Source of the DNA: an uncultured Cellvibrionales bacterium
GTDB lineage: Bacteria > Pseudomonadota > Gammaproteobacteria > Pseudomonadales > Cellvibrionaceae
NCBI GenBank assembly: GCA_913020395.1
Contig: CAJWCA010000003.1
Coordinates: forward strand, 1-40,282
DNA: 40,282 bases
Direction of reading: 5' to 3'
In this document: one piece after another, positions 19,498 to 38,906 of the stretch
Position numbering within the stretch: the stretch's first letter is position 1
Layout: each line of letters opens with the position of its first letter
Position numbers and translations under genes: made by a program
Notes under the pieces: generated by a model
Seen by the model: only the letters and a program-made list of their open reading frames with translations
What the model was told of the DNA's origin: nothing
Databases searched by the model: none

Positions 19498-20130
19498 TTA
19501 TGACTCGGCACGAAATCCATATTCAGCAGATGCGTCTGCAATCCACTTAAACAGGTAGTCTGCAAAGCTGCGGCGAATCACCAGGTCGAAAGACCCATCG
19601 TCTTTTTTGCAAACCAGTGCACCGGCTTTTGCAAAAGTTGTTTGCACACATCGACCCGCACCAAAATGTGAGGGGTGGAAGTCGTAACCACTGGATTTTT
19701 GCAGCAAAGGCAATACATCTTTACCGCTGAGATTCATCAAGGTCTGCCCACCGCTGAGATCCACAACGGCAAAGTGTCCATTCAAAGACTCCCGCAAACA
19801 CCTTTCCAGCTCAGCTTCTGTACCACCAACTACCACAAGCAACCACTCATTGGGGCTCAAGCAATAAACTTGTGTCTCCCCTGAGGCGGCCGACTCGCCA
19901 ATTTTGGTGGGCAACGCCAGACCCAATACTTCTTCGGTGCCGCGCAAAAACAATTCGTTATCGGGGTTGCCGCGCAGACTCAAGTGACCTTTGAGTGGAA
20001 ACTCTTTCAGCAATACGCCGCAATCCGCACCTTCAGCGCTGGACTGCGCCTGAATCACATAGTGCAAAGGAGACTCTCTGCGCACGGCCATTTCTGACTC
20101 AGAACTTTTTTCTCGAAGCGCTTCAGACAT
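19498..20130 (-). CDS. soxG: Heterotetrameric sarcosine oxidase, gamma subunit
   Basis: SoxG is the gamma subunit of the alpha-beta-gamma-delta sarcosine oxidase, a GcvT-like domain protein that packs against the tetrahydrofolate-binding part of SoxA. ATG 20130 overlaps the soxA stop by 8 nt and gives 210 residues starting MSEALREKSS. The longer frame to 20343 runs inside soxA and is not coding. Family signatures are SPNEWLLVV, then VVDLSGGQTLMNLSGKDVLPLLQKSSGYDFHP and VIRRSFADYLFKW. It is the last gene of the betaine cluster. The 88-nt gap to the convergent regulator gene shows no clear U-tailed terminator. Confidence 0.92.
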   Translation of the reverse strand: MSEALREKSSESEMAVRRESPLHYVIQAQSSAEGADCGVLLKEFPLKGHLSLRGNPDNELFLRGTEEVLGLALPTKIGESAASGETQVYCLSPNEWLLVVVGGTEAELERCLRESLNGHFAVVDLSGGQTLMNLSGKDVLPLLQKSSGYDFHPSHFGAGRCVQTTFAKAGALVCKKDDGSFDLVIRRSFADYLFKWIADASAEYGFRAES

Positions 20131-23100
20131 TGTGACGATCTCCCTGTGGATCATAAAAAACAGAACTGACAATTTCAGCGGCGACCGTTTGACCATTGGC
20201 CAGCGGACAGTGAACAATTTCACCCATTCGCTTGAGCCCGCCTTTAACCACCGCCATGGCGATGGAGTGGCCCAGGTTGGCGCTGTAATAACTAGAGGTA
20301 ACGTGGCCCTGCATCGCCATCGGTATCGGCTGATTGGGGTCATTCACAATCTGCGCTCCCTCTGGCAATACCGCTTTGGGGTTGAGGGTCTTCAAACCCA
20401 CCAGCTGTTTGCGACCTTCCCTCACCGTGTCACTGCGATCCAGTGAACGTTTGCCAATAAAGCTAAAGGCTTTTTTCTTGCCAACCACCCAGTCCATATC
20501 CATATCGGGCGGAGTCACAGAACCATCGGTATCTTGACCCACGATAATGAAACCTTTTTCAGCCCGCAGAACGTGCATGGTTTCCGTACCGTAGGGTGTA
20601 ATGTCAAACTCTTTACCCGCCTCTATCAAGGCCTCCCAAATGTGTCGGCCATAATGGGCTGGCACGTTGACTTCATAAGACAACTCGCCGGTAAAGCTGA
20701 TTCGGAATACCCTGGCCTTAATGCCGGCCACGGTACCGTCTCGCCAATCCATGAACTTAAACGCTTCGTTCGACAGCTCAATGTCACTGCACACCTTTTC
20801 AATAACCTTGCGTGCATTCGGGCCCGTGACGGTGGCTGTTGTCCAGTGATCAGTCACCGAAGTGAAATACACATCCAGTTCAGGCCACTCAGTTTGTTGC
20901 CACAACTCAAGCCAGGCCAACACGCCTGCTGCACCACCCGTGGTGGTGAACATCTGATAGTGATTTTCGCCGAGACAGGCGGTGACACCGTCGTCGAAAA
21001 TCATGCCGTCTTCTTTCAACATCACACCATAACGACACTTGCCTTGCGCCAGCTTCAGGTAGGAGTTTGTGTAGATGCGAGTAATAAACTCAGCGGCATC
21101 CGGGCCTTGTATATCAATTTTTCCGAGTGTAGAGGCATCCAAAATACCAACACTGTTACGCACTGCCAAACACTCGCGATCAACCGCCTGATGCATGTTC
21201 TCACCGGCCTTAGGGAAATACCAGGGCCGTTTCCACTGCCCTACATCTTCCCATTGAGCGCCGTGTTCTTCATGCCAACGGTGTACTGCAGTATAGCGCT
21301 CAGGGTCAAACAGGTCTTTCACATCGCGACCGGCAATAGCGCCAAAGGTTGTGGGTGTGTATGAAGGCCTGAAAATGGTAGTGCCCGTTTCGGGAATGCT
21401 CTGGCCCAGGGCCTTGGCTAAAATTGCCATCCCGTTAATATTGCCCAGCTTGCCCTGATCGGTACCAAAACCCATCGCGGTGTAACGCTTAACATGTTCA
21501 ACCGACTCATACCCTTCACGGGCGGCCAGTTCAATACCCGCGGCGGTCACATCCAGCTGGAAATCTACAAACTGACTCGGCGCCCGACTGGCAGGTTTGT
21601 TGTGAGGCACCAGAAACAAAGCTTGCTGCGGGTCTTGAGGCAACTCTTGCGTATTCGGAGAAACAAAACTACTGGTCCCGCTTCCAAACCCAGCCGCTGA
21701 TGCCGCTTGGGCGCCCGCTTTAGCGCCTTCGTTCAAACAGGCCAACAAACTGTATGTGCCTTTGCAGGCGCCCGCGGAACGCTCCGCTTGTTTAGAGGCC
21801 CCCGGAACAAACCCAACAACTTCATCATCCCACTGAGGCTTGGCGCCGGTGTGGGAGCTGAGGTGGATCACCGGGCTCCAACCACCCGAGCAAGCAATCA
21901 AGTCACAGGCCAGGGATTGTGATGGGCCGGTAACCCTGTTGCCTTCTCGATTGAGAGGTGCAACTACCGCCGCCTGCACACGTTTTTTACCAACAGTTTC
22001 AATAATACCGTGGCCATCAATGATTTCGATGCCCAGGTCACGAACGACCTTAACCAGCGCCCCACCAGGGTTCGCTCGGGAATCCACAACCGCCACCACT
22101 CGGCGGCCGGCATTGTGCCAGTCGATCGCAGTCTGGTAGGCATTGTCGTTTGTGGTAAACAGCACCAGGTCCTTGCCAGGCGCCACGGCATAACGATTGA
22201 CATAGGTCGACACCGAAGAGGCCATCATCACGCCTGGCACATCGTTTTTGCCAAATACCAATGGTCGTTCAATGGCGCCAGTTGCCAATACTACCTGCGC
22301 TGCACGCACTCGGTGAAGCCGCTGACGTGTGCCTTTTTCAGCACTCAAACCCAAATGATCTGTACGGCGTTCAAGGATTGCCAAAAAGTTATGGTCGTAA
22401 TACCCAAACACGGTGCTTCGGGGTAACAACAAAACGTTGTCCAGCGCCTGCAATTCGCTCAGTGTTTGCTCCACCCAGGCCCGGGCCGTTTTATCTCCAA
22501 TGTTCTGAGTGGATGCCAGCAGGCTGCCACCACATTCATTTTGTTCATCGGCAAGAATCACTCTTGCGCCGGTTCGCGCAGCTTCCAAGGCAGCCGTCAA
22601 TCCAGCGGGACCGGCGCCAACAACCAATACGTCGCAATGCTGATTAAGTTTGTCGTAAGTGTCTGGATCCGCCTCAACAGGTGCCTTGCCCAAACCCGCC
22701 GCCTTGCGGATAAAGTGTTCATAGGTCATCCACAATTTCTTCGGACGCATGAAGGTTTTGTAATAAAAACCCGGGGGCATCAAACGCCCCAGCGCACCCA
22801 TAGCGCCCATCACGTCGAAGTCGACACTCGGCCAACCGCTGACACTGCTCGCTTCAAGCCCCTCGTATAATTCGACTTGGGTAGCACGCAAATTGGGTAC
22901 CGTTTTTGAGCCACTTCCCAGCTGCATAATGCCGTTGGGTTCTTCCGCGCCGTGTCCAACAATACCCCGAGGGCGGCCATATTTAAAACTGCGCCCTACA
23001 ACATCGACACCGTTAGCCAGCAGAGCAGACGCCAGCGTATCACCCTGCACGCCTCGCAGGGCTTTGCCATTGAAGGTAAAGTTGATGACCGCGTCACGGT

Positions 23101-23137
23101 TCACCAAGCCCCCTTTCATTAATCGATTCGCTTGCAT
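20123..23137 (-). CDS. soxA: Heterotetrameric sarcosine oxidase, alpha subunit
   Basis: SoxA binds NAD+ and tetrahydrofolate and transfers the methyl group of sarcosine to make 5,10-methylene-THF. The 1004-residue protein has an N-terminal 2Fe-2S-ferredoxin-like fold without cysteines (GDTLASALLANGVDVVGRSFKYGRPRG split across residues 35-65), an NAD-binding Rossmann domain (VVGAGPAGLTAALEAARTGA near 170), and a C-terminal GcvT-like aminomethyltransferase domain from about residue 620 (ILDASTLGKIDIQGPDAAEF, then GYGR-type region HYGRHIWEALIEAGKEFDITPYGTE in pieces). Length is normal. The start overlaps the soxD stop (TAATG), indicating coupled translation. Confidence 0.96.
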   Translation of the reverse strand: MQANRLMKGGLVNRDAVINFTFNGKALRGVQGDTLASALLANGVDVVGRSFKYGRPRGIVGHGAEEPNGIMQLGSGSKTVPNLRATQVELYEGLEASSVSGWPSVDFDVMGAMGALGRLMPPGFYYKTFMRPKKLWMTYEHFIRKAAGLGKAPVEADPDTYDKLNQHCDVLVVGAGPAGLTAALEAARTGARVILADEQNECGGSLLASTQNIGDKTARAWVEQTLSELQALDNVLLLPRSTVFGYYDHNFLAILERRTDHLGLSAEKGTRQRLHRVRAAQVVLATGAIERPLVFGKNDVPGVMMASSVSTYVNRYAVAPGKDLVLFTTNDNAYQTAIDWHNAGRRVVAVVDSRANPGGALVKVVRDLGIEIIDGHGIIETVGKKRVQAAVVAPLNREGNRVTGPSQSLACDLIACSGGWSPVIHLSSHTGAKPQWDDEVVGFVPGASKQAERSAGACKGTYSLLACLNEGAKAGAQAASAAGFGSGTSSFVSPNTQELPQDPQQALFLVPHNKPASRAPSQFVDFQLDVTAAGIELAAREGYESVEHVKRYTAMGFGTDQGKLGNINGMAILAKALGQSIPETGTTIFRPSYTPTTFGAIAGRDVKDLFDPERYTAVHRWHEEHGAQWEDVGQWKRPWYFPKAGENMHQAVDRECLAVRNSVGILDASTLGKIDIQGPDAAEFITRIYTNSYLKLAQGKCRYGVMLKEDGMIFDDGVTACLGENHYQMFTTTGGAAGVLAWLELWQQTEWPELDVYFTSVTDHWTTATVTGPNARKVIEKVCSDIELSNEAFKFMDWRDGTVAGIKARVFRISFTGELSYEVNVPAHYGRHIWEALIEAGKEFDITPYGTETMHVLRAEKGFIIVGQDTDGSVTPPDMDMDWVVGKKKAFSFIGKRSLDRSDTVREGRKQLVGLKTLNPKAVLPEGAQIVNDPNQPIPMAMQGHVTSSYYSANLGHSIAMAVVKGGLKRMGEIVHCPLANGQTVAAEIVSSVFYDPQGDRHNV

Positions 23138-23439
23138 TATCGTGTGACTCCTGCGGTCTCTTCTGTAACGCTGGGCTCAGACCCGATGGGATAAGTTTCC
23201 AGAATTTCATAACTCAAGGTATGGCGAGTGACGTTAAAATACCGGCGACACGCCGCCGCGTGATACCACATCTCATGGTGGATGCCACGGGGGTTCTTGC
23301 GGAAAAATAAATAGTCTCCCCACTCCTGATCACTCAGTGCTTCGGGTTCCAGAGGTCGCGCAATGTGCGCTTCGCCACTGTAAGTAAATTCTTCTTCTTC
23401 ACGTGTTTCATTACAGTAGGGGCAGTGAATTTGTAACAT
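23137..23439 (-). CDS. soxD: Heterotetrameric sarcosine oxidase, delta subunit
   Basis: The small SoxD subunit holds a structural zinc ion. In this 100-residue protein the expected ligands are present: C6 and C9 in HCPYCNE, and H60 and C64 in WYHAAACRRYFN. The conserved middle EWGDYLFFRKNPRGIHHEMW is also intact. It is located between soxB and soxA, 11 nt after soxB, and its stop overlaps the soxA start. The extended tail after ETYPIGSEPS is poorly conserved, as usual. Confidence 0.95.
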   Translation of the reverse strand: MLQIHCPYCNETREEEEFTYSGEAHIARPLEPEALSDQEWGDYLFFRKNPRGIHHEMWYHAAACRRYFNVTRHTLSYEILETYPIGSEPSVTEETAGVTR

Positions 23440-23450
23440 CTCAAGGTCCT

Positions 23451-24701
23451 CTAGTGAGCCACACCGGCAGCGCCGTGTTCATCAATTAATGCACCGCTGC
23501 TAAAGCGGTCTATGTTAAATGCCTCTGCCATTGGATGAGGCCGATCATTGGCCACCGTATCGGCAAAGACGTAACCGGACCCCGGTGTTGCCTTAAATCC
23601 TCCGGTTCCCCAACCACAGTTAAAATAAAGCCCTTTCACAGAGGTTTTACTCACAATCGGGCAGGCATCCGGGCAGGTGTCAACAATACCGCCCCACTGT
23701 CGATTCATTCGCACCCGGCTGAAGGCCGGGAACAGTTCGCAAATGGCTTGCACGGTGTGTTCAATCACGTGAAATGAACCCCGCTGACCATAACCATTGT
23801 AGGCATCCACACCCGCGCCGATGACCAGATCACCTTTGTCGGACTGGCTGATATAACCGTGTACCGCATTAGACATAACAACGGTATCCAGACACGGTTT
23901 TACCGGTTCAGACACCAAGGCCTGCAAAGGGCGTGACTCAATAGGCAATCGCAGTCCGGCCATAGCCGCCATCACGCCGGAATTACCCGCGGTCACACAG
24001 GCCACCTTGCGTGCACCGATAAAACCCTTGGTGGTTTCCACGCCGACCACTTCGCCATTTGAGCGACGAATGCCAGTCACTTCTGTTTCCTGAATAAGAT
24101 CCACACCCAGCGCATCCGCCCCGCGTGCGTAACCCCAGGCCACCGCATCGTGACGGGCGGTGCCCCCACGAGGCTGCCAAGAGGCACCCAATACGGGATA
24201 ACGTGAATCGGGTGAGCAGTTCATCAAAGGCACTATGTCCTGCACTTCTGCGGTCGACAATACATGGCCATCAATGCCGTTAAGGCGGTTGGCGTTAACC
24301 CGCCGCTCAATGTCGCGCATGTCTTGAAGAGTATGCCCCAGGTTTAACACGCCACGCTGACTAAACATGACATTAAAGTTCAAGTCCTGACTCAGGTCTT
24401 CCCAGAGTTTTAAGGCAAACTCATACAATTGAGACGCCTCATCCCAGAGGTAATTTGAGCGGATAATGGTAGTATTCCTGGCTGTATTACCGCCGCCGAG
24501 ATAGCCTTTTTCCACTACCGCCACATTAGTAATGCCATGCACCTTTGCCAGATAGTAGGCGGTCGCCAAACCGTGTCCACCACCACCCACAATCACCACG
24601 TCATACACTTTTTTGGGCGTGGGGTTGCGCCAGGCACGCTGCCAATTTTCATGGTATTTGTGTGCGTGCTTGAAAAGTTTCAGGAGCGAATATTTTTCCA
24701 T
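23451..24701 (-). CDS. soxB: Heterotetrameric sarcosine oxidase, beta subunit
   Basis: SoxB is the flavoprotein subunit that oxidises sarcosine. It binds FAD in a Rossmann fold ([19 protein letters not shown], residues about 35-53) and FMN covalently at a His, here probably H184 in [12 protein letters not shown]. The C-terminal [14 protein letters not shown] is also typical. I chose ATG 24701 ([10 protein letters not shown]) because family members begin with that sequence; an in-frame ATG at 24716 adds five residues. Electrons pass to oxygen, giving H2O2, in the isolated enzyme. It is separated from the upstream serine dehydratase-like gene by about 78 nt. Confidence 0.95.
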
Positions 24702-24779
24702 AGTCATCTCAATCAAGTTGTCAATATTAAGTATTCTCGACGCTGGCGATCACGCTGATCGTGCGTCCGTTTTTTATCT

Positions 24780-26084
24780 CTAGCTGGCTCGCAAACTGAA
24801 ACCTTCAACATTCATTGTCTGGTTTCGGTCGTTGGTGGTTTGCTCGCTATAACCATTCATCGCGATAAACGAGGCGTTAATGGCTTTCATCGCTGCCATT
24901 GCACACAGATCATTACTGGACAATTGTTTTAAACCCAGGTGATCATTGATGGCAATTTTTGTAGCATTTTCTATCTGGGTAGGACTTCCGCCCAGCGCTT
25001 CACTCAAACCCGCAGCGGCCATCGCACAGGCAATGCCAAGATCGTCAAGCTCTTCGCCTTCTGCGTTAGAATTTATTCTGTTCTGACTTAAAAGACTGCC
25101 AACGGATCCAGCGGTCAACAAAAAATCAATAATCGATTTTTCGCCCGCGCGATTGGTAAAGCGATTAAAATAATGTAATACCGCAGAAACAACTCCGGCA
25201 TGCTCGTTAGTGGGTGCCGACACAATTCTGCCGCCGCGAGCATTTTCTTCTGCCACCGATAGCGCATAAAGATTTACCCAGGCCATTGCATTAATGGGAG
25301 GGGAAATAGAACGTTGCCGCTGGTCTAGTAACAGTTTTTCATGCAAGCCAGGCGCAATTCTTTTTTCGCCAGAATCAGTGTTTAACGCAGGCGTTCCATC
25401 CAACCCCCGCCTAATACAGTCTCGTATAATTTGCCAAACGCCCAGCAAATCTCCGCGCACTTCCTGTTCACTGCGCCAAAAACATTCATTCTCCAGAATC
25501 AACTCTGATACACGGCTGTCTTTTTCTTCTGCCAGCCGGCAGAGTGATTGAATGTTTGTGACGTTATTGGGCAGCGACAAAGGTTGCATGTGTTCGCCCT
25601 CGTCAGCCAACATTGCCACGTCGCGTATTGTGCCGGCAGAGGCCACACAAAATTCCCTCTGGTGCACCGCTTCGTTCGCTTTGTTGTAGGCTGTGAACCG
25701 CAGAGCGATGCTGTGTTCGTCTATCAACTCATGTGGAAAATAGTGAATGTCGGTTGTGATGGAAAATGGTAATACATGTTTTTGAAGCAGTGATAATTTT
25801 CCGCTATCGACAATACCTTTAAGAATTTTGGCCGCACTTTCTGATTCTAATGTTTCAGGTTCTTCACCTGACAGACCCAACAAAACCGCATCGTCTGTTC
25901 GCTGTTCAAAAGCTGTGGCGGCCAGCGTGCCAAACAAATCAATGCTCACTCGAGAGACATGATTTAACACACCACTGTGACGTAATTCGCTGGAAAATCT
26001 ATTGGCCGCTCGCATAGGTCCCACTGTGCAAGCGCTCGAGGGCCCGACACCGATTTGGAACACATTAAATACACTAATTGACAC
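24780..26084 (-). CDS. L-serine dehydratase-like protein lacking the Fe-S cysteines
   Basis: The 434-residue protein aligns along its full length with single-chain iron-sulphur L-serine ammonia-lyases (SdaA), which turn serine into pyruvate. The fold markers remain: the N-terminal MSISVFNVFQIGVGPSS, GIACAMAAAGLSEALGGSPTQIENA at 350-374 in two stretches, and MKAINASFIAM. The chemistry does not: GPSSSHT reads GPSSACT (14-20), the GKGHxTD loop reads AFEQRTD, APTNGAAG reads APTNEHAG (290-297), the EVGCQGEVG Cys is lost near 343-350, the segment with the next two cluster Cys (GLTCDPVGG...PCIERN) is shortened to GLKQLSSNDLC, and the C-terminal Cys is missing. The frame is intact. The start is GTG with GAGAG 7 nt upstream. 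The context predicts serine metabolism, but the activity must differ or be absent. Confidence 0.85.
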   Translation of the reverse strand: MSISVFNVFQIGVGPSSACTVGPMRAANRFSSELRHSGVLNHVSRVSIDLFGTLAATAFEQRTDDAVLLGLSGEEPETLESESAAKILKGIVDSGKLSLLQKHVLPFSITTDIHYFPHELIDEHSIALRFTAYNKANEAVHQREFCVASAGTIRDVAMLADEGEHMQPLSLPNNVTNIQSLCRLAEEKDSRVSELILENECFWRSEQEVRGDLLGVWQIIRDCIRRGLDGTPALNTDSGEKRIAPGLHEKLLLDQRQRSISPPINAMAWVNLYALSVAEENARGGRIVSAPTNEHAGVVSAVLHYFNRFTNRAGEKSIIDFLLTAGSVGSLLSQNRINSNAEGEELDDLGIACAMAAAGLSEALGGSPTQIENATKIAINDHLGLKQLSSNDLCAMAAMKAINASFIAMNGYSEQTTNDRNQTMNVEGFSLRAS

Positions 26085-26205: not shown

Positions 26206-27006
26206 CTAGCGAACGACACCCTCTTCTAACAACAGAGAAAGGATCGCCTGAGCCTGTTCGCGAGCCGGTTTATCTTTGATAACCTGACCGCCAGAGGCTT
26301 GGGATTTGACGGTGGCCGCCTTAAAACGGTCCGCCGCTGTTTTGGCTTTAGCAATTTTCATTCGTTTTGCACGCTTTCGCGCGGGTGCTCGCTGCACGTC
26401 CAGGGCTGCGTCGTGGCTAGGTTCTGCTTGCTCTTGCACTGAGGCCGCAATGGTACACATAGATCCGCGACTGGCCGGACCAAAGGCACTTTGACGCGGG
26501 CCGGCAGCGGCACCGTCAACACTGGCAATAAACGGCAGCGCGACTTTTAGGATACGGCGCTGCCCTCGGGGCAATGCTTGCAAGACCTCTGCCTCACCCC
26601 CTTCAATTTTAACGATATCTGCGATGGAACTGACCATTGGCCACTGCAGCTGCTCTGCCAACTGATAAGGTGTCATCCCAGAGGAGTCACCACTTTCAGC
26701 CCGAACACCGCTCAATACGATATCCGGCATTTTGGTTTTCACGTAATCACCGAGGGTCTCACTCAGGCTCGAGCCGGCACCCTGCTCCAATACCGTCATT
26801 TCCTCCAGACCCATGCCCAGATAACTGCGCAATGCATCATTGTCGGCATTGTCTGCATTGCCAACGTGTAACATCTCCAAGGCGTTGCCCGATAGGCTCA
26901 GACCCAGCTCCACCGCGCGAGCATCCTGATCCGCACGTCGCGCCCTGCCAGACTTGGGGTGCAAACCTACTGATACCAGGGCGATTATCTTCTCATTACT
27001 GGACAT
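26206..27006 (-). CDS. etfB: Electron transfer flavoprotein beta subunit, betaine-cluster type
   Basis: The ETF beta subunit carries electrons with EtfA, here from the dimethylglycine demethylase to the respiratory chain. The first 160 residues follow the adenine nucleotide alpha-hydrolase-like fold (KIIALVSVGLHPKSGRARRADQDARAVELG, and GMTPYQLAEQLQWPMVSSI as the stretch near 130-148). The AMP-binding signature [20 protein letters not shown] of ordinary EtfB is not recognisable. The tail instead holds a Lys/Arg-rich segment (RKRAKRMKIAKAK near residue 208) before the final helix. It has 266 residues. It overlaps etfA by 11 nt. Confidence 0.85.
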   Translation of the reverse strand: MSSNEKIIALVSVGLHPKSGRARRADQDARAVELGLSLSGNALEMLHVGNADNADNDALRSYLGMGLEEMTVLEQGAGSSLSETLGDYVKTKMPDIVLSGVRAESGDSSGMTPYQLAEQLQWPMVSSIADIVKIEGGEAEVLQALPRGQRRILKVALPFIASVDGAAAGPRQSAFGPASRGSMCTIAASVQEQAEPSHDAALDVQRAPARKRAKRMKIAKAKTAADRFKAATVKSQASGGQVIKDKPAREQAQAILSLLLEEGVVR

Positions 27007-28252
27007 CTGCTGACTCCCCCCGGCGGTGCTCTTTCACCAATTCAACTAATTCGTGCAATATTTCCTGGCTGTCACCAATCACACTCAGATCTGCACGTTT
27101 AACCATGTCACAGCCGGCATCCGTATTAATTGCAATGACCTTTTCACACTGACCGATGCCCTGCATGTGCTGAACGGCACCCGATATGCCCAGCGCGACA
27201 TAAACCCGCGCCGTTACCCAGGTGCCCGTGGCGCCCACTTGAGTGGCGCGAGGCATGAAACCATCATCAACCGCTACCCGACTGGCCCCTTCCGTTGCAC
27301 CCAGAACGGCCGCCGCCTCGTGAAATTGCTGCCAATCGTGAATACCATTGCCTGCAGACAAAATAAACTCCGCTTCTCCCAAAGGTATTTTGCTGGGGTC
27401 GACGGCCAACATGCCAGCGTCTTCTATCCGAGGATCAGTAACAACTTGTGATTCAAGTGTTAACGGCAAAACCTCATGACGGGTTTCATCAATGGGGTGT
27501 GCGCACTCCTCGGCTAACAAGATAAATCGGGGTGTTTTGCGACTGAGGTCTTCCCGGCCACCACAGCCACGACTGATAGCGAGATCTTTATCCACTTGCC
27601 AGGCCTGAGTCGCTACGGGTTCGCCCAGTTTTGCCGCCAGGCGGGAACCTAGATCGCGCCCCCCGTAGATGCTATCGGGAAACAGACAATAACGGGCCTG
27701 CCATTGAGACATTACCTTCTGCAGCGCTGCCACTTGCAACTCGGGGCAATAGCTTTGATAGTTCGGCTGATCAAAATGTATCAGTCGATCAACACCTGCC
27801 TTATCAAACGCCTCTTCTTTAGACTCTCCAAAAACCACCGCTAAAACGGCGCCTTTGTCGCTGTGAGCATTAATGAGTTTATGCGCCTGGCCCAACACAT
27901 CTTTGTCGTGTTCGGTCAGCCTGCCACCCACCAGGTCCAATACCGCCATGATATAAAAATCAGGGTTTTCAATTTTTACCAGCGGTAACTGTTCTAGCAC
28001 AGCCTCTTCTGGCCTGACTCTTCTGCCTGCATTGGCAACAAAACTTCCCACTGAAGAGCGATCAATACGCTTGAGGCCCCCTGGTCCGATAAAACCAATT
28101 GAGTGCAGGTTTTTTCGAACCAAACCCGTAGGCCCCCGTTCAACGCAGGGAAAAACAGTGCCCTGTCCGTGCAAAGGGTGAAGCCGGTTGCGCGCAATCC
28201 AGTCTTGCCTCGGATTGCGCCGGAAACCCGTCGACGTTTCTTGAGTGCTCAT
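26996..28252 (-). CDS. etfA: Electron transfer flavoprotein alpha subunit, betaine-cluster type
   Basis: EtfA binds the redox-active FAD. The C-terminal FAD domain (from about residue 285) has ASRVAVDDGFMPRATQVGATG, then VYVALGISGAVQHMQGIG and AINTDAGCDMVKRADLSVIGD, all typical. At 418 residues it is about 100 longer than the usual EtfA. The extra part is an N-terminal basic extension (residues about 1-90, with QDWIARNRLHPLHGQG and GPGGLKRIDRSSVGSFVANAGRRVRP) before the nucleotide-fold domain. Its ATG overlaps the dgcB stop by 4 nt, so DgcB and the ETF are coupled and the ETF is probably dedicated to dimethylglycine oxidation. Confidence 0.9.
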   Translation of the reverse strand: MSTQETSTGFRRNPRQDWIARNRLHPLHGQGTVFPCVERGPTGLVRKNLHSIGFIGPGGLKRIDRSSVGSFVANAGRRVRPEEAVLEQLPLVKIENPDFYIMAVLDLVGGRLTEHDKDVLGQAHKLINAHSDKGAVLAVVFGESKEEAFDKAGVDRLIHFDQPNYQSYCPELQVAALQKVMSQWQARYCLFPDSIYGGRDLGSRLAAKLGEPVATQAWQVDKDLAISRGCGGREDLSRKTPRFILLAEECAHPIDETRHEVLPLTLESQVVTDPRIEDAGMLAVDPSKIPLGEAEFILSAGNGIHDWQQFHEAAAVLGATEGASRVAVDDGFMPRATQVGATGTWVTARVYVALGISGAVQHMQGIGQCEKVIAINTDAGCDMVKRADLSVIGDSQEILHELVELVKEHRRGESADVQ

Positions 28253-30153
28253 GAATGCTGCTCCTCAAGTAATACATCAACAACAATCTCGGCGATATCT
28301 TTGACTTCGGGACGTGGCTCCACAACACCTTCCAACATGGCGGTGCACTGCTGACAGCCAACCGCGAGCAATTCTGCTCCAGTCGCTTTTACGTCTTCCA
28401 TTCTCATGTCGGCGATGCGACGCTCTCCGGGAATATCGGTAATGGGAGCACCACCGCCTCCACCACAACAACGGGAGCGGAAACCAGACCGTTCCATCTC
28501 AGCCAATTCAATACCCAGAGCCTTCAATAGCTCCCGGGGTGAGTCGTATTCACCGTTGTAACGCCCGAGGTAACAGGGGTCGTGATAGGTCACCGTGCCG
28601 CCTTTAAATTCGCCCAGCGCCAAGCGCCCTTCTTTAACCAGCGCGTTGATAAAACTCGTGTGGTGCAATACTTCGTAGTGGCCACCCAAATCCGGGTATT
28701 CATTTTTCAGGCAGTGAAAGGCGTGCGGGTCAGTAGTAACAATTTGTTTAAAAGAATACTGATTCAAAGTCTCAATGTTCTGCTTCGCCAAACGCTGAAA
28801 AGTAGCATCGTCACCCAGACGGCGAGCCACGTCGCCCGAGTCACACTCTTCGTTACCCAGCACCGCAAAATTGACACCCGCCGCTTTCATTACCGAAACA
28901 AACGCGCGCAATATTCTCTGGCTGCGCATGTCAAAAGCCCCATCGCTCACCCAGAACAGAACGTCGGCTTGTTTCACATCTGCCATCAATTGCAAGTTTT
29001 GATCGGCAGCCCAGTTCATTCTGTCGCCCGGATTTGCGCCATTGGGATTGTCTGTGGCTATGAGGTTATCCAGCACTTCGGCACCCTTGTTGGGTGTGCT
29101 GCCTTTCTCCAGAGTGAGATAACGGCGCATGTCGACGATAGCATCCACATGCTCAATCATCATGGGACACTCCTCCACACAGGCGCGACACGTAGTACAA
29201 GACCAGAGTGTCTCGGGGTCGAGTAAACCCTCCGTTATAATTTGATTGCCGCCCCCCTTTGCCTGACCCACATCGCGCCCGGGATAAGGGCTGCCCGCGT
29301 AATGTTCATCGCTGCCTCCCGCAAACCCGACCACCATATCCTGAATCAGTTTTTTGGGGTTGAGTGGTTGGCCTGCCGCAAAGGCCGGACACACGGCTTC
29401 GCAACGACCACACTGAACGCAGGCGTCAAAACCCAGCAGCTGATTCCACTTAAAGTCTGTGGGTTGAGCCACGCCGAGCCGACTGTCATCGAGATTGAGT
29501 AATTTTATGCCTGTTGAGCGCCCGCCGTTAAAACGTTCCGGGCGACGGTGAAAGGCCAGGTGCAGCGCACCGGCGAAGGCGTGTTTCATCGGCCCGCCCC
29601 AGGCCATGCCAAACAGCATTTCCCCAAGCCCCGCTATCACACAAACCAACAACAGAGCAGATAAAAGCCAGCCACCCGCTTCTTTCGGAAGCAGGCCGGC
29701 GGCGGGCAAGGTAATAATAAAAAAGGTAGCAGAGAACACCAGTAAGCTTTTAGGCAGGCGCATCCAGGGGCCCTTCGACAAACGCGCAGGTGGATTGCGC
29801 CTGCGCCCGTAGACAAACAGGGCGCCCACAAACATACACGCCGAAGACGCCAGCAAGGCCCAGCTCAGCCATCGGTTATCTAGCCCACCCAAGTGAACCA
29901 TCAGAATGAAAATCAGCGATGCAACAAAACCACCGGCGGTTGCCACATGGGTTTTGGACATGTAACTATCGCGTTCCACCACGTGGTGAAGGTCGACCAA
30001 GTAACGCTGGGGTATGGCTAACAGACCCCTGAAAAAATCAACCGGCTGCGCCTGTCCACTGCGCCACAACAGGACACGCCGGAGCGCACCCACCAAAGAC
30101 AACACCAGAACAGCCACCAGCAAACCCGGAAGTAATCCGTCGAGATTCATCAT
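28249..30153 (-). CDS. dgcB: Dimethylglycine demethylase, membrane Fe-S subunit DgcB
   Basis: DgcB is the membrane-bound Fe-S partner of DgcA. This 634-residue protein starts with about five hydrophobic helices (residues 5-200, with HHVVERD giving likely haem or quinone-site His). Two [4Fe-4S] ferredoxin motifs follow, CVQCGRCEAVCP and CTTCRACVEECP. The C-terminal half has CCG-type domains like heterodisulphide reductase HdrD (HDPCYLGRYNGEYDSPRELL, then RCCGGGGGAPI and VGCQQCTAMLEG). Such proteins pass electrons from ETF or flavin enzymes to quinone. It starts 29 nt after dgcA. Confidence 0.92.
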   Translation of the reverse strand: MMNLDGLLPGLLVAVLVLSLVGALRRVLLWRSGQAQPVDFFRGLLAIPQRYLVDLHHVVERDSYMSKTHVATAGGFVASLIFILMVHLGGLDNRWLSWALLASSACMFVGALFVYGRRRNPPARLSKGPWMRLPKSLLVFSATFFIITLPAAGLLPKEAGGWLLSALLLVCVIAGLGEMLFGMAWGGPMKHAFAGALHLAFHRRPERFNGGRSTGIKLLNLDDSRLGVAQPTDFKWNQLLGFDACVQCGRCEAVCPAFAAGQPLNPKKLIQDMVVGFAGGSDEHYAGSPYPGRDVGQAKGGGNQIITEGLLDPETLWSCTTCRACVEECPMMIEHVDAIVDMRRYLTLEKGSTPNKGAEVLDNLIATDNPNGANPGDRMNWAADQNLQLMADVKQADVLFWVSDGAFDMRSQRILRAFVSVMKAAGVNFAVLGNEECDSGDVARRLGDDATFQRLAKQNIETLNQYSFKQIVTTDPHAFHCLKNEYPDLGGHYEVLHHTSFINALVKEGRLALGEFKGGTVTYHDPCYLGRYNGEYDSPRELLKALGIELAEMERSGFRSRCCGGGGGAPITDIPGERRIADMRMEDVKATGAELLAVGCQQCTAMLEGVVEPRPEVKDIAEIVVDVLLEEQHS

Positions 30154-30182: not shown

Positions 30183-32246
30183 TTAAAGGTCTTTACACAG
30201 TCGTAATGCATCGTAAATAGCCGCGTGTGTATTGCGTTGCGACACACCATCACCCAAACGCCACAGCACCATATCATCACTGCCGTCAGTCAAGCTGGGC
30301 TGCACAACGCCGGCAAACAACGCTTCCACATCCACCTGGCCTTTATTGCACGATTCCTGTTTCAGGGCGTAATACAAGGCTTCATCAGGGCGCACACCAT
30401 TTTCAACCACCACCTGATCAACCACTCGTTCTTCCTGTTGACCGGTGTATTCGTTTTCCAGAACGGCAACCAATTTGTCACCTTCGCGGTACACTTTCTC
30501 CAGCAGAAGATCGGAAGACATAATGACTTCTTTCTCATACAGACTGCGGTAATAGGTTGGAAAAGTTGTACCGCCAATACCCGCACCGGGTTTAATATCA
30601 TCGGTAACAATCTCAACCAATGAGCCTTTGGCCGCGAGGTAATCCGCCGCTGACAAACCTGAAAATTCACAAATGGTATCGTAGATCAATACATTTTTGC
30701 CGGGTTCAACCGCGCCGCTAAGAATATCCCAGGTAGAGACCACCAAACCTTCAGCGGCACCCCAGGCTTCGTTCTGCTCCAGGAAGGGCTGCCCCCCCAG
30801 GGCCAAAATGGTGACGTCGGGGCGCAGGTCACGAATGGTATCGGCATCCGCTTCGGTGCCGAGGCGCAGATCAACACCCAGGCGCTCAAGCTCCATTGAG
30901 AACCAACGTGTAATACCTGCAATTTGGTCCCGTTGTGGTGCCTGGGCGGCGAGAGTAATTTGTCCGCCAAGTGCCTCTGCCCGCTCAATTAGCGTAACGT
31001 CGTGCCCGCGTTCTGCGGCCACTCGCGCCGCCTCCATACCGCCGGGGCCTCCACCAACGACCACAACTTTTCGCACAGGGCCTTCAGTCTTTTCAATCAG
31101 GTGAGGCATGTTCTGGTACTCTCGCGACGTGGCCGCGTTCTGAATACACAAGACATCCAAACCCTGGTACTGTCGGTCAATGCAGTAGTTTGCACCCACA
31201 CATTGGCGAATCTGATCGACCTGATCCATTTTAATTTTGGCAATCAAATGCGGATCTGCAATCTGCGCTCGCGTCATTCCCACCAGATCAACATAACCGG
31301 CTTCCAAAATCCGCTGCGCCTGGTTGGGGTCTTTAATGTTTTGGGCATGAATCACAGGCACATCAACAACCGACTTGATTCCCGCCGCCAGGTGAAGAAA
31401 AGGCTCGGGCGGGTAACTCATATTGGGAATCACATTTGCGAGCGTATTGTGTGTATCACAACCGGAACCCACCACGCCAAAAAAGTCCAACAAACCGGTG
31501 TCGTTGTAATACTTGGCGATTTTTTTCATCTCTTCGTGATCGAGGCCATCCGGGTGAAATTCGTCACCACACAGACGCATGCCAACGGCAAAATCCCGCC
31601 CCACTTCTTCGCGCACCGCCTTCAATACTTCCATGCCAAAACGCATGCGGTTTTCAAAGCTGCCACCCCATTCGTCATCCCGTCGGTTGACCCTGGGAGA
31701 CCAGAACTGATCAATCATGTGCTGGTGAACCGCCGACAACTCCACGCCGTCCAAACCGCCGTCTTTAGCCCGGCGAGCGGCCTGGGCAAAATCGGCGATC
31801 ACGCGGTGTATTTCTTCCACCTCGATAGTTTTACAGGTGGCGCGATGAACGGGTTCACGAATGCCAGAAGGGCTCATGAGGTTTGGCCAGTTTTCACCGT
31901 CCCAGCGAGAACGTCGCCCCATGTGGGTAATCTGGATCATGATCTTGCCGCCGTGTTTGTGCACGGCGTCCGCCAAATTCTGGAAGTGCGGAATAATGCG
32001 ATCCGTCGACAGATTCACCGAACTCCACCAGCTTTGCGGACTGTCTATGGAGACCACACTCGAGCCACCACAAATACTCAAACCACATCCACCCTTGGCT
32101 TTTTCTTCGTAATACTTGATATAACGCTCAGTGGTCATGCCGCCGTCAGTGGCATACACTTCTGCGTGGGCAGTACTGACAACACGGTTACGCACTGTCA
32201 GTTGATTGATCGTCAGCGGCTGAAAAATGGCTTCATACTGGGACAT
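30183..32246 (-). CDS. dgcA: Dimethylglycine demethylase, flavin subunit DgcA
   Basis: DgcA oxidatively demethylates dimethylglycine to sarcosine and formaldehyde. The 687-residue protein belongs to the trimethylamine dehydrogenase / 2,4-dienoyl-CoA reductase family. It has an Old Yellow Enzyme-like FMN barrel at residues 1-345, a short Fe-S segment at 349-367, and an ADP/FAD-binding Rossmann part from 390 (VVVVGGGPGGMEAARVA). The barrel active-site loop reads ELSAVHQHMIDQFWSPRVNRRDDEWGG in pieces. The Fe-S segment has C349, C355 and C367, while the position of the second Cys is A352. It starts 11 nt after the V4R gene. Confidence 0.93.
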   Translation of the reverse strand: MSQYEAIFQPLTINQLTVRNRVVSTAHAEVYATDGGMTTERYIKYYEEKAKGGCGLSICGGSSVVSIDSPQSWWSSVNLSTDRIIPHFQNLADAVHKHGGKIMIQITHMGRRSRWDGENWPNLMSPSGIREPVHRATCKTIEVEEIHRVIADFAQAARRAKDGGLDGVELSAVHQHMIDQFWSPRVNRRDDEWGGSFENRMRFGMEVLKAVREEVGRDFAVGMRLCGDEFHPDGLDHEEMKKIAKYYNDTGLLDFFGVVGSGCDTHNTLANVIPNMSYPPEPFLHLAAGIKSVVDVPVIHAQNIKDPNQAQRILEAGYVDLVGMTRAQIADPHLIAKIKMDQVDQIRQCVGANYCIDRQYQGLDVLCIQNAATSREYQNMPHLIEKTEGPVRKVVVVGGGPGGMEAARVAAERGHDVTLIERAEALGGQITLAAQAPQRDQIAGITRWFSMELERLGVDLRLGTEADADTIRDLRPDVTILALGGQPFLEQNEAWGAAEGLVVSTWDILSGAVEPGKNVLIYDTICEFSGLSAADYLAAKGSLVEIVTDDIKPGAGIGGTTFPTYYRSLYEKEVIMSSDLLLEKVYREGDKLVAVLENEYTGQQEERVVDQVVVENGVRPDEALYYALKQESCNKGQVDVEALFAGVVQPSLTDGSDDMVLWRLGDGVSQRNTHAAIYDALRLCKDL

Positions 32247-32257
32247 GGTAATTTCCG

Positions 32258-32800
32258 TCAGCTAGAGGTTTCTAAAGATTTTGCAACTTCGAATGTGCAG
32301 TGATCCTGGTGCCCTTCGCAGGCACACTGGGTTTCATCACACACAACCTTGACCGGGTTGCCCGTATTTTCACCCACCCACTCCATGGCGCCGGCAAACC
32401 AGCCCGCAAACATGTAACACACCCGGCGGCCGGCATCGCGACCGTATTGAGCCACAAATGCCGAATGGTCCAGGCGAATCCGCGCCGTGCCGGCTTCGGG
32501 GTCAATGGCGTCAAGGGAAAACAAACCCCAGCCACGCTGAGACAAACGCAAGAGGTAGTGCTCAAAAACATCCACTCCGCTCAAACCGTGGGTGCTGGCC
32601 TCTTCTTCACACCAGAAGTAGGCAGACTTATAGCCGGCGGCGCCAAGAATATCGCGATACTTCTCTTCACCCAGGGCCTCTTCAACGGCCTTGTGGTTAT
32701 TGACAAAAAAGTGCTGAGGCACATAAATCATGGGCAGGCCATCAGTGCTCCACACGCCCGTTGATTCATGTACTTCGATTGGTAGTTTTGGCGTTCCCAT
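32258..32800 (-). CDS. V4R-domain (4-vinyl reductase-like) protein of the betaine cluster
   Basis: This 180-residue protein is of the type found beside dgcAB in pseudomonads. The C-terminal half is a V4R domain, a small-molecule-binding or metal-binding fold, with a Cys cluster CDETQCACEGHQDHC near residues 153-167. The conserved N-terminus MGTPKLPIEVHESTGVWSTDG is followed by FWCEEEASTHGLSGVDVFEHYL. I chose ATG 32800, which lies 2 nt after the dipeptidase stop with GGGGAG just upstream; an in-frame GTG at 32815 is less likely. It has no known reaction. The location implies a structural, sensing or maturation role in dimethylglycine demethylation. Confidence 0.75.
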   Translation of the reverse strand: MGTPKLPIEVHESTGVWSTDGLPMIYVPQHFFVNNHKAVEEALGEEKYRDILGAAGYKSAYFWCEEEASTHGLSGVDVFEHYLLRLSQRGWGLFSLDAIDPEAGTARIRLDHSAFVAQYGRDAGRRVCYMFAGWFAGAMEWVGENTGNPVKVVCDETQCACEGHQDHCTFEVAKSLETSS

Positions 32801-32802
32801 GT

Positions 32803-33780
32803 TTATTCTCCCCACACGTCTTTCAAAATTCTCATCCAGTTTTCACCCATGACTTTACGGATTCGGGTGTCTGACCAACCCGCCCGCGACATGGCCTCTG
32901 TTAAATTGGGAAACTCGCCCAGGGTTCTAATGCCCTCGGGGTTAACAATTTTGCCAAAGTCGGTTAACTTGCGGGCATAACCTTTGTCGTGCACCAGCCA
33001 GTCAAAAAAGTCACGACCGTGATCCTGAGTAAAGTCAGTGCCAATTCCGACACAATCTTCACCCGCAATATTGATCACATAATCAATCGCTTCAACATAG
33101 TCATCTACTGTGGAGTCGGGTCCATTTCTCAGGAAAGGCGAGAACATGGTGACACCCACAAAACCACCGTGATCGGCGATGAACTTCAACTCTTCATCGG
33201 ATTTATTGCGTGGATGATCCTTCAAACCCGAAGGTAAACAGTGTGAGTAACAAACAGGTTTTGTTGATTCCAGGATCACTTCCTGAGAGGTGGTGGCGCC
33301 CACATGACTTAGGTCACACATCACACCCACGCGGTTCATTTCCGCCACAATTTCACGACCAAAACCCGACAAGCCGCCATCGCGTTCATAACAACCGCAA
33401 CCCACCAGGTTTTGTGTGTTGTATGCCATCTGAACAACACCCACACCCAAATCTTTAAACAGCTGCACATAACCCAGCTGGTCTTCATAGGCACTAGTAT
33501 TTTGAAAACTGAGGATAATACCGGTTTTGCCCTGACGTTTGGCTTCAAGAATATCTGCCGTGGTTTTCACTGGCATAATCAAGTCGCTGTTGTCCCGGTA
33601 AAAACCGTTGAACTCCACCAGGTTATTCATGGTGGCTTGAAAACCCTCCCATACCGACATTGTGCAGCTCGCACCTGTCAGCCCACCGCGGCGCATATCT
33701 TCAAATAACTCACGGCTCCAATTGGCAATGACCAAGCCGTCGATCACAATCATTTCGTCGTGCATCGCTGTGGTTTTCAT
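32803..33780 (-). CDS. M19 membrane-dipeptidase-like protein of the betaine cluster
   Basis: The 325-residue protein is a renal-dipeptidase (M19) homologue of the type found next to dgcAB in pseudomonads. It has no signal peptide, so it is cytoplasmic. Retained residues: H159 (CDLSHVG), H180 (CYSHC), R191 (HPRNKSDEE) and D249 (GIGTDF). Lost residues: the N-terminal H-x-D metal pair (here L16 and I18 in IDGLVIAN) and the bridging Glu (Q93 in LSFQN). It therefore cannot hold the normal binuclear zinc site. A role as a dipeptidase is doubtful; the position next to a V4R gene and dgcA suggests a dedicated role in the pathway. Confidence 0.85.
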   Translation of the reverse strand: MKTTAMHDEMIVIDGLVIANWSRELFEDMRRGGLTGASCTMSVWEGFQATMNNLVEFNGFYRDNSDLIMPVKTTADILEAKRQGKTGIILSFQNTSAYEDQLGYVQLFKDLGVGVVQMAYNTQNLVGCGCYERDGGLSGFGREIVAEMNRVGVMCDLSHVGATTSQEVILESTKPVCYSHCLPSGLKDHPRNKSDEELKFIADHGGFVGVTMFSPFLRNGPDSTVDDYVEAIDYVINIAGEDCVGIGTDFTQDHGRDFFDWLVHDKGYARKLTDFGKIVNPEGIRTLGEFPNLTEAMSRAGWSDTRIRKVMGENWMRILKDVWGE

Positions 33781-33929: not shown

Positions 33930-35183
33930 TTAGGCATAGACGGGAAAATCCGAACACAAACCCAGTGCGCGCTGCTTAACCTCTTCAATGACGGCTTCGT
34001 TTTCAATATCGTCCAGCACGTCGCACATCCAGGTCGCAACCTCTTCACACTGGGGTGTTTTGAATCCACGTGTAGTCACAGCCGGCGTACCGATTCGCAA
34101 ACCGCTCGTCACAAAGGGCGACTGAGGGTCATTGGGCACCGTATTTTTATTGACCGTGATGTTGGCGCGGCCCAGCGCTGCATCGGCAGCCTTGCCGGTA
34201 ATGCCTTTGTCAATCAGGTCCAGCAGAAACAGGTGATCGTCGGTGCCGTCAGAAACAATTTTGTAACCGCGCGCCTGAAATACCGACACCATCGCTCTGG
34301 CATTATCGACAACTTGCTGTTGATAATGCCCAAACTCAGGACTCAAGGCTTCTTTAAACGCCACCGCTTTTGCCGCAATCACATGCATCAAAGGACCGCC
34401 CTGCCCGCCGGGGAAAACCGCGGAATTCAATTTCTTTTCAAGCTCGGCATTGGCCTTGGCCAAAATCAGACCGCCTCTGGGGCCTCGCAACGTTTTGTGA
34501 GTGGTGGTTGTCACAACATCGGCAATGGGTACCGGGTTTGGGTATTGACCAACCGCAACCAGACCGGCTACGTGAGCCATGTCTACAAACAGGTAGGCAC
34601 CCACCGAATCGGCAATATCGCGAAAACGTTGCCAGTCCATCACGCGGGAGTAGGCAGAAAAACCAGCAACAATCATTTTGGGATTGTGTTGTTTCGCAAG
34701 TTCAGCAACCTGCTCGTAATCCACCTCGCCTGTCTGCTCATTCAAACCGTATTGAATGGCGTTATAGGTTTTACCTGAAAAATTAGGTTTTGCGCCGTGG
34801 GTCAGGTGTCCACCGTGATCGAGGCTCAAACCCAAAATAGTATCTCCAGGCTGCAACAGCGCCAGGTAAACCGCAGCATTGGCCTGAGAACCAGAATGGG
34901 GCTGCACGTTCACATAGTCGGCACCAAACAGCTCTTTGGCTCTGTCAATCGCCAGTGTCTCTACAGTATCAACGTGTTCACAGCCACCGTAATAACGCTT
35001 TCCGGGATAACCTTCCGCATATTTGTTTGTCAGTGCAGAACCCTGCGCTTTCATCACACGTGTGCTGGTGTAGTTTTCTGAAGCAATTAATTCAATGTGT
35101 TCTTCTTGCCGAATTTCTTCGCGGCTCATCGCTGCCCACAATTCGTCGTCAAAGCCTGCTATTTCATCTTGTTTATTAAACAT
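33930..35183 (-). CDS. glyA: Serine hydroxymethyltransferase
   Basis: GlyA uses PLP and 5,10-methylene-THF to interconvert glycine and serine. In this cluster it would run from glycine towards serine, consuming the C1-folate made by sarcosine oxidase. The 417-residue protein has the family N-terminus [28 protein letters not shown] in pieces, [18 protein letters not shown], and the PLP-lysine motif [15 protein letters not shown] (the His-Lys pair near residue 229). GGGAG precedes ATG 35183. It lies 61 nt after gbcB. It is probably a pathway-specific second copy, since most genomes also have a housekeeping glyA. Confidence 0.96.
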
Positions 35184-35244: not shown

Positions 35245-36348
35245 TTAATATTCGACGGCCACATCACCCTGGGGCACACTACAACAGCTGAGAATATAAC
35301 CTTCCTCAACGTCACTATCGGTGATGCCACCGTTGTGGGTCATAACGACTTCGCCGGACTTTTTGTACACTTTACAGGTGCCACAAATACCCATACCACA
35401 GGCTTTGGGAATATGAAGACCCACTTTTGCAGCCGCTTCGTGCACGGTTTCACCCGGTACAATTTGTGAGCCTTTGCCGGTTTTAGTAAATTCAACCAGG
35501 TGCAAAGCGCTCTCATCAATATTGTTCAGTTGATCCTGTGCAAACTCTGCTTGCTCAACCGCATCGTCCATGACTTCTTCTGGTGAGCTGCCAAAACTCT
35601 CCTCATGGTAGCGCTCCATCGGAAAACCACTTTCTTTCAAAATGGTTTTGATCGCGCTCATATAAGCCGCGGGCCCGCAACAGAAAATTTCCCGCTCCAT
35701 AAAGTCTGGCGTAATCAGGTGCAACATGTTGCTGTTGAGGTAGCCGGTGTAACCACACCAGGATTCACCAATGTCGTAACCTTCACAAATGATCGAGAGA
35801 TTAAAACTGGGAATGCGCGAGTCCATATACTCCAGCTCGCGCCGGTAGATAATATCTTTGGGGGTACGTGCACTGTGCACAAACGCCATATCAACAGCGC
35901 TATTGGTATCAAAACACCAACGCGACATAGACATCAACGGCGTAATGCCCACACCACCCGACAACAGCAACACTTTCTCAGCGGGGTAGTCAATATTATT
36001 AAACTCTCCCACAGGACCGTGCACAGCCAACTCAAAACCTTCCACCAAGTTGTCGTGTATCCAGTTGGACACCAGCCCGTCGGACACACGTTTGATGGTG
36101 ACTGAAAAGCTATAGGGCACTGAGGGCGAAGAGGAGATTGTGTAACTTCGCATGACCTGCTGCCCATCGATTTCAAGCTCCAGGGTAATGAACTGCCCGG
36201 GTTTGAAAAAATACATCACCGGCATTTCTGCACTAAAACAAAAGGTGCGAACGTCTTCGGTTTCCTGAATGACTTTTACACAGCGCACCACATGGCGGCC
36301 ACTGGTCCAGGTCTGGGTGTTGATGGGGTTCATAAAGGCTGCGGTCAT
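35245..36348 (-). CDS. gbcB: Glycine betaine monooxygenase, reductase subunit GbcB
   Basis: GbcB passes electrons from NAD(P)H to the Rieske oxygenase GbcA, which removes one methyl from glycine betaine as formaldehyde. The protein (367 residues from ATG 36348) has an FNR-type FAD domain (RSYTISSSP near residue 66), an NAD domain (SGGVGITPLMSMSR, then EIFCCGPAAYM), and a C-terminal [2Fe-2S] ferredoxin (CGMGICGTC followed by a distal Cys in LSCC). An in-frame extension to 36390 exists, but GAGAG before 36348 and family length favour the later start. gbcA itself is not in this window. Confidence 0.92.
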   Translation of the reverse strand: MTAAFMNPINTQTWTSGRHVVRCVKVIQETEDVRTFCFSAEMPVMYFFKPGQFITLELEIDGQQVMRSYTISSSPSVPYSFSVTIKRVSDGLVSNWIHDNLVEGFELAVHGPVGEFNNIDYPAEKVLLLSGGVGITPLMSMSRWCFDTNSAVDMAFVHSARTPKDIIYRRELEYMDSRIPSFNLSIICEGYDIGESWCGYTGYLNSNMLHLITPDFMEREIFCCGPAAYMSAIKTILKESGFPMERYHEESFGSSPEEVMDDAVEQAEFAQDQLNNIDESALHLVEFTKTGKGSQIVPGETVHEAAAKVGLHIPKACGMGICGTCKVYKKSGEVVMTHNGGITDSDVEEGYILSCCSVPQGDVAVEY

Positions 36349-36381
36349 CGTTTCTCTCTCAAAAAAATTCGGCCATGTAAT

Positions 36382-36414
36382 GCTTGTCACGCGAACAACA
36401 GTGCCGCTTGTTAC
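36382..36414. promoter_or_regulatory. Candidate AraC-type site upstream of gbcB
   Basis: GCTTGTCAC (36382-36390) recurs as GCTTGTTAC (36406-36414), a direct repeat with one mismatch and a 24-bp period. The same stretch also contains AACAA-N9-TTGTT. Direct repeats at about two helical turns are typical of AraC-family binding, and two GbdR-type genes are adjacent. Assignment to GbdR is inference. Confidence 0.35.
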
Positions 36415-37576: not shown

Positions 37577-37709
37577 GGCCCTCTTCCTCGCAGTTGTTTA
37601 CTTTAAATACCGGGCACCCACCAGCAGAATGGCGCCTATACATACATTCTAGCATTGGAATTCTGGATGAAAAATCGACAAAACGACATCGGCTTCACCA
37701 AAAACGTCT

Positions 37710-38878: not shown

Positions 38879-38906
38879 AGCTTTTTACAGAGCTTTTTAC
38901 AGAGCT
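38879..38906. repeat. Tandem 12-bp repeat at the 3' end of fdhA
   Basis: The unit AGCTTTTTACAG occurs twice in a row (38879-38890 and 38891-38902), followed by a partial third copy, AG at 38903 and the first bases of the fdhA stop region. It abuts the stop codon of fdhA (38905-38907). Probably a slippage duplication. Confidence 0.6.

Follow-up and report, generated by a model that had tools for sequence, protein, structure and literature searches.

A diverged homologue of L-serine dehydratase without the [4Fe-4S] cluster ligands in the betaine/sarcosine operon of an uncultured Cellvibrionales bacterium

The window, by which we mean the whole stretch of 40,282 nucleotides that was analysed, carries on its minus strand an operon whose genes run in the order fdhA, two AraC/DJ-1 regulators, gbcB, glyA, M19 dipeptidase, DUF5943, dgcA-like, dgcB-like, etfA, etfB, sda', soxB, soxD, soxA and soxG. 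The two regulators are presumably similar to GbdR. The operon is that of the route from glycine betaine to serine, in which serine dehydratase is the last step (PMC12093977, in its accessible part). The genes and the matches by which they were named are as follows, G001 being a genome of the same genus.

38905..40110, minus strand: fdhA, glutathione-independent formaldehyde dehydrogenase (TIGR02819, 781.4 bits; 87% identity to G001)
36596..38678, minus strand: two tandem AraC-type regulators with a DJ-1/PfpI domain (domain matches)
35245..36390, minus strand: gbcB, glycine betaine monooxygenase reductase (NF058606, 661.5 bits)
33930..35183, minus strand: glyA, serine hydroxymethyltransferase, which acts one step ahead of serine dehydratase (NF000586, 660.9 bits)
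32803..33780, minus strand: M19 dipeptidase (domain match)
32258..32815, minus strand: DUF5943/V4R protein (domain match)
30183..32246, minus strand: dgcA-like FMN/FAD oxidoreductase (PF00724; best NCBIfam match TIGR03997, below its cut-off; named by position)
28249..30153, minus strand: dgcB-like iron-sulfur protein (PF11982, Fer4 and CCG domains; named by position)
26996..28252, minus strand: etfA (NF051845, 617.8 bits)
26206..27006, minus strand: etfB, directly upstream of sda' (NF051844, 352.8 bits)
24780..26084, minus strand: sda', a diverged homologue of SdaA without cluster (434 aa from a GTG start; Pfam and TIGR00720 matches)
23451..24716, minus strand: soxB, sarcosine oxidase beta, directly downstream of sda' (TIGR01373, 707.9 bits; 92% identity to G001)
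23137..23439, minus strand: soxD, sarcosine oxidase delta, 100 aa (TIGR01374, 123.9 bits)
20123..23137, minus strand: soxA, sarcosine oxidase alpha (SO_alpha_A3 and GCV_T domains)
19498..20115, minus strand: soxG, sarcosine oxidase gamma (PF04268, 131.2 bits; start assumed, the listed ORF opening further upstream)

No terminator-like site was found within 24000-26600. The sda' frame is initiated by GTG and encodes 434 amino acids with no internal stop, and the opposite (plus) strand across 24780-26084 is full of stops; the original prediction had given the intact 434-codon frame and its coordinates correctly, and the strand that it left out is the minus strand. Pfam recognised SDH_beta (136.1 bits) and SDH_alpha (122 bits) in the protein, the homology spanning nearly its full length, and the order SDH_beta-SDH_alpha is that of SdaA/SdaB, the [4Fe-4S] L-serine dehydratases (TIGR00720; solved example 4rqo). 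TIGR00720 itself scored 345.7 bits, its cut-off being 345.1. The place upstream of soxB is also common to SdaA/SdaB and sda'. In Hahella (L006), Marinobacterium (L012) and Thalassolituus (L021) soxB is directly preceded by a canonical sdaA, which itself has glyA before it, and the same arrangement was found in two genomes of the same family (G098 and G086; loci L033 and L034). No glyA was detected in Marinomonas pollencensis (L016), where sdaA precedes soxB, and in Oceanobacter kriegii (L018) soxB begins further downstream of sdaA. Since canonical sdaA sits upstream of soxB in these other genomes, sda', lying between etfB and soxB, occupies the place of the canonical gene, as had been predicted from its neighbours.

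Compared with SdaA/SdaB, the sda' protein is without the cluster cysteines and without His61, has an eight-residue deletion and ends in a shortened tail. Residue numbers of the canonical enzyme are those of LpLSD, for which the accessible portion of PMC12647591 proposes His61 as the catalytic base, and the ligand and base positions of LpLSD were mapped onto the 4rqo chain. The census alignment held 94 homologue rows, 90 of them distinct, and each count given here is of the rows covering that position. The alignments located the following changes.

26028..26030, minus strand: codon 19, Cys for the His of GPSSSH (GPSSSHT reads GPSSACT; His19 in 88/88 covered homologues)
25902..25904, minus strand: codon 61, Gln for His61, the proposed catalytic base (GKGHGT reads AFEQRT; His in 88/88 covered homologues)
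25200..25205, minus strand: codons 294-295, Glu-His for Gly-Ala (APTNGAAG reads APTNEHAG)
25050..25052, minus strand: codon 345, Glu for cluster ligand Cys343, in the acidic loop NAEGEELDDLG (canonical GAEVGCQGEVG; alignments and census)
24924..24929, minus strand: codons 386-387, which flank the loss of 8 residues, ligand Cys385 among them (canonical LGLTCDPxGGLVQ(V/I)PCIERN reads LGLK, the gap, then QLSSNDLC)
24915..24917, minus strand: codon 390, Ser for ligand Cys396 (Cys in 86/86 covered homologues)
24780..24785, minus strand: last codon, Ser434, and stop of a shortened C-terminus without Cys458 (final Cys in 86/86 covered homologues)

Cys343 was present in 87 of 88 covered homologues and Cys385 in 86 of 87, and the single exception in both cases was L134, a 201-residue beta-domain fragment whose letters at these two columns are not a true alignment. 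All full-length proteins of the census keep the four cluster cysteines and His61, none of which is present in the sda' protein: the three cluster cysteines 343, 385 and 396 correspond to a Glu, a deleted position and a Ser, the C-terminal tail carrying Cys458 is absent (434 residues, compared with 460 in, for example, L005), and position 61 is Gln. The altered motifs named in the original prediction (GPSSSHT, the His of GKGHxTD, APTNGAAG and the Cys of EVGCQGEVG) are all borne out by the alignments, as is the loss of the Cys of the C-terminal tail. Its statement that an eight-residue deletion removes the cluster ligands holds for Cys385, whereas the Cys396 column is still aligned and that ligand was substituted rather than deleted. 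Motifs were read in the 90 distinct homologues, the remaining database matches being judged by identity. A base set of 58 canonical proteins leaves out L026 and L027, whose main frame lacks a GPSS motif, and also L029, which is shorter than 300 residues; all three retain whichever motifs they cover.

Seven cysteines are left in the sda' protein (19, 146, 182, 201, 223, 353 and 394). The columns of Cys223 and Cys353 are Cys throughout the A1 alignment, and Cys394, four residues off the Cys396 column, is the sole near candidate for a ligand in the sequence. That sda' still encodes an Fe-S L-serine dehydratase, one with an unusual cluster site, is very unlikely: the TIGR00720 cut-off is passed, by 0.6 bits, but the four cysteine ligands and His61 are all absent and each of the seven remaining cysteines lies off the ligand columns. 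The sda' protein is outside the normal range of the Fe-S L-serine dehydratase family.

An AlphaFold2 model of the sda' protein reached a pLDDT of 82.7 and a pTM of 0.83, compared with 85.5 and 0.86 for the canonical control L014, from an input alignment of 19 canonical relatives on which the model leans. The model aligned with 4rqo over 396 residues (Z 44.5, rmsd 2.3), and the predicted fold is still that of L-serine dehydratase. Low confidence in loops was considered as a sign of disorder and dropped, as the canonical control was low there as well. The SDH_beta domain of the model matched part of serine-bound phosphoglycerate dehydrogenase (3dc2, Z 9.5), a part that we take to be the regulatory, serine-binding region of that enzyme. 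The overall fold of the model resembled that of L-cysteine desulfidase CyuA (Z 19-22, 11-12% identity), described in the available section of PMC12647591 as a [4Fe-4S] enzyme with Cys23/Glu25. Its alpha-domain fold resembled the MmgE/PrpD family (PrpD, cis-aconitate decarboxylase and iminodisuccinate epimerase) at Z 12.3-14.1 and 9-14% identity, and that family, like sda', is without a [4Fe-4S] site.

The likeness to MmgE/PrpD bears on the idea that sda' is a neofunctionalised, cofactor-free lyase or epimerase, in which Cys19, Glu294-His295 and Glu345 with its acidic loop could perform acid-base chemistry on another substrate, perhaps with a divalent metal. We consider this rather unlikely. 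The modelled matches to iminodisuccinate epimerase, cis-aconitate decarboxylase and PrpD/MmgE speak for it, the first two being enzymes whose mechanism needs no cofactor according to the accessible part of PMC12647591, and among 20 proteins scanned with the Pfam family MmgE_PrpD_N the strongest match was that of sda' (E 5.8e-5). This match, at 22.9 bits, is nevertheless below the Pfam cut-off of 32.1, and the family was matched (E up to 10) by 16 of the 20 members of the SdaA family, so that it reflects shared ancestry. The catalytic His of the HPS loop of MmgE/PrpD is H102 of Bacillus IRG1 (PMC7347537, in its accessible part), to which we read His112 of E. coli PrpD as equivalent. A low-confidence profile alignment (hhalign, 11 MmgE/PrpD sequences) placed this column on Ala290 of sda', with APTN over HPSD, and gave no support to His295 as the equivalent of that His. 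A new enzyme also has against it that no pathway step requiring one was seen to be missing and that no conserved relatives were found. The more specific proposal that in sda' the L-serine dehydratase fold has its first member to work without a cofactor, the Fe-S site having been rebuilt as an acidic/His cavity for another metabolite of the betaine-sarcosine-glycine pathway, seems less likely again. No MmgE/PrpD gene above cut-off was found in the organism's own genome.

The source genome bin is 83.9% complete, with 5.3% contamination, and consists of 402 contigs. A second, canonical sdaA, for which the original prediction had advised a search, was found in it on contig C353 (L100; G000:C353, 1-2114), with all motifs present and 698.5 bits to TIGR00720; it is divergent from a gbcA fragment that is cut by the contig end (NF058607, 220 bits over 140 aa). 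In G001 a gbcA match is divergent from fdhA, unlike the gbcA of the present genome, which is divergent from sdaA. On the chromosome, contigs C3 and C353 may lie near each other.

The operon of G001 keeps this gene order, with protein identities from 92% (soxB) to 53% (etfB and soxG), and in it etfB is followed by soxB without sda'; glyA is also missing from its place. The glyA gene, which lies between gbcB and the M19 dipeptidase gene in the window, is, like sda', an operon gene in one of two same-genus genomes. An assembly or binning artefact could be suspected in a fragmented bin with this estimated contamination, but the flanking operon is collinear with that of G001 at 53-92% protein identity and the changes in sda' are in-frame and scattered, unlike those of a chimera; such an artefact is hardly credible. 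The etfB-sda' spacer resembles the etfB-soxB spacer of G001 (score reached by 4 of 300 shuffles), and the sda'-soxB spacer shows no resemblance to it (121 of 300 shuffles). No remnant of sda' was found in G001; the one weak stretch (E 0.11) falls within another open frame, which looks like a peptidase. The gene may have been gained in its own lineage or lost in G001. The only SdaA found in G001 (L031; G001:C21) is divergent and motif-complete (ISAAEVGCQGEIG) and has a long branch (1.63); it is 38% identical to the sda' protein.

Orthologues were sought in overlapping samples of 2 genomes of the genus, 144 of the family, 390 of the order, 369 of the class and 398 of the phylum, with E cut-offs of 1e-85 for the class and 1e-88 for the phylum. 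Genomes with any match numbered 79 of 144 in the family and at least 198 of 390 in the order; among the matches listed, 6 genomes came from the class sample and 3 from the phylum sample. Judged by identity, none of the family, order, class and phylum genomes held an orthologue of sda'. Besides the protein itself, the best full-length matches among those listed were 42-43% identical, with short segments up to 50%; L101 and L064, which rank highest by bits or identity, are both canonical. GTDB r220 contigs, of close relatives only, gave 27 loci, all canonical at the motifs that they cover, and no orthologue. Plasmids gave 135 records, all below 60% identity (the best of 15 listed was 40.6%) and with no orthologue when judged by identity only, and none was found in viral contigs. 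The motif changes of sda' were seen in none of the 90 distinct homologues. An independent, equally diverged variant elsewhere could be missed by identity-based judging. Among the publications returned by literature searches on inactive or cluster-free forms of L-serine dehydratase, none had this subject by its title.

The sda' protein is 29-41% identical to the census homologues over at least 380 columns. In the phylogeny its branch, at about 10 changes per column, is saturated, so that its origin within the SdaA tree is unreadable. As far as searched, sda' is carried by a single genome and G001 does without it, and the new class suggested by the original prediction finds no support in the genome samples, contigs, plasmids or viral contigs, nor in the operon of G001. 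Resting on one genome bin, sda' is a lead and not a new class.

A gene of this kind might be a relic, a copy of sdaA freed by the second sdaA and drifting to loss, and already lost from G001 or never present there. Its occurrence in a single genome, its absence from G001, its extremely long branch and its redundancy with the canonical sdaA all favour a relic, and its pattern of change was compared with that expected under decay. The 58 canonical proteins share 152 columns that are invariant in at least 98% of them, and sda' keeps 82 of these and loses 70, the lost ones including the missing tail; in the core, 52 of 131 conserved columns are lost. Within six residues of His61, Cys343, Cys385 or Cys396 the losses amount to 24 of 34 columns, compared with 28 of 97 elsewhere (Fisher p 2.4e-5), and the contrast was unchanged with windows of 4 and 8 residues. 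It was weaker (30 of 55 vs 22 of 76) when the GPSSSH and APTNGAAG motifs were added to the near set. Core losses were also clustered, in 47 runs compared with 63.6 expected (p 0.0017). In 200 neutral simulations, started from the genome's own sdaA and continued until the same share of core columns was lost, about 341 changes accumulated with 9.9 nonsense changes on average and at least one in every run, under the assumption of uniform neutrality from a canonical start and with frameshifts not counted. The synonymous codon score of sda' (-1.181) compares with -1.344 (sd 0.024) for random synonymous codons and is within the range of the other genes in the window (-1.01 to -1.22); its GC3, 0.45, is among the lowest in the window.

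The profile of the 58 canonical proteins gave sda' 380 bits, less than it gave the neutral copies (mean 431.8, sd 33.2), and by this measure no constraint on sda' is visible, a further point for a relic. The neutral copies were 62% identical to their start, and the sda' protein is 37% identical to the same start. Because the losses concentrate at the active site and neutral drift meets about 10 nonsense mutations, the sda' protein was probably kept under selection after the loss of catalysis. On balance, the protein, and not only its DNA, appears to have been maintained while the active site was dismantled, which falls short of proving a present-day function. An intact 434-codon frame, gene-like codon usage and losses that centre on the active site instead of being scattered make a relic fairly unlikely. 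The original prediction had named a lone degenerate copy without conserved homologues as a finding that would refute it: sda' is lone as far as searched, and it is not clearly degenerate, since frame, codon usage and loss pattern argue against simple decay.

The explanation that we favour, tentatively and at somewhat less than an even chance, is that sda' encodes a lineage-restricted, cluster-free pseudo-serine-dehydratase, in which the two-domain scaffold has survived the loss of the catalytic base and of the [4Fe-4S] site and which would bind serine or the canonical SdaA. That the protein is dead but retained is the better supported half of this explanation, and the binding partner is a guess. 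Such a protein should be unable to dehydrate serine by the known mechanism and would be made together with the betaine/sarcosine enzymes. Through its SDH_beta domain and the dimer surface of the family it might bind serine or a canonical SdaA subunit, and the binding would tune the last step, serine to pyruvate, during betaine degradation. A sensing role is plausible because the modelled SDH_beta domain resembles part of serine-bound phosphoglycerate dehydrogenase, and sda' may regulate the canonical enzyme or pair with it in a heteromer. Since the protein retains none of the known cluster ligands, its frame is intact, its fold is predicted to be preserved and the genome has a canonical sdaA besides, it may be a regulatory or scaffolding paralogue or act on a different substrate. 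Points against a retained pseudoenzyme are the occurrence in one incomplete and fragmented bin as far as searched, the absence from G001, the low GC3, the profile score beneath that of the neutral copies, and the long saturated branch, because weakly constrained genes can look so.

The Fe-S L-serine dehydratases are otherwise very uniform, the full-length relatives that we compared keeping the same ligands down to about 30% identity to sda'. If the favoured explanation is true, a cluster-free paralogue retained in an operon that yields serine would offer a natural experiment on the role of the scaffold without its cofactor, be it the sensing of serine, the control of heterodimers or a new reaction. 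It would also test the interconversion of Fe-S and cofactor-free lyases of one fold. Should sda' instead be a cofactor-independent enzyme, it would show the conversion of an Fe-S lyase into a cofactor-free one, like its MmgE/PrpD cousins.

Several minor observations concern the neighbouring genes. Against G001, etfA and etfB are 61 and 53% identical, and gbcB, dgcAB, dipeptidase, DUF5943, soxA, soxB and fdhA are 73-92% identical; soxG (53%) and the regulators are likewise low, the latter being in tandem in G001 as well (64 and 70% identity). Transfer of etfAB-sda' as one block was considered and dropped, the 61% of etfA to G001 being ordinary, with a best value of 64% among the genomes of the order. 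Direct repeats flanking sda' were also dropped, since their score was reached by 59 of 2000 shuffles and exceeded by other spacer pairs. In G113, soxB (89% identity) has a divergent AraC-type gene upstream. The family, probably Cellvibrionaceae since it includes Candidatus Endobugula, contains a genome whose SdaA homologue (L038) is identical in protein sequence to that of Candidatus Endobugula (L004).
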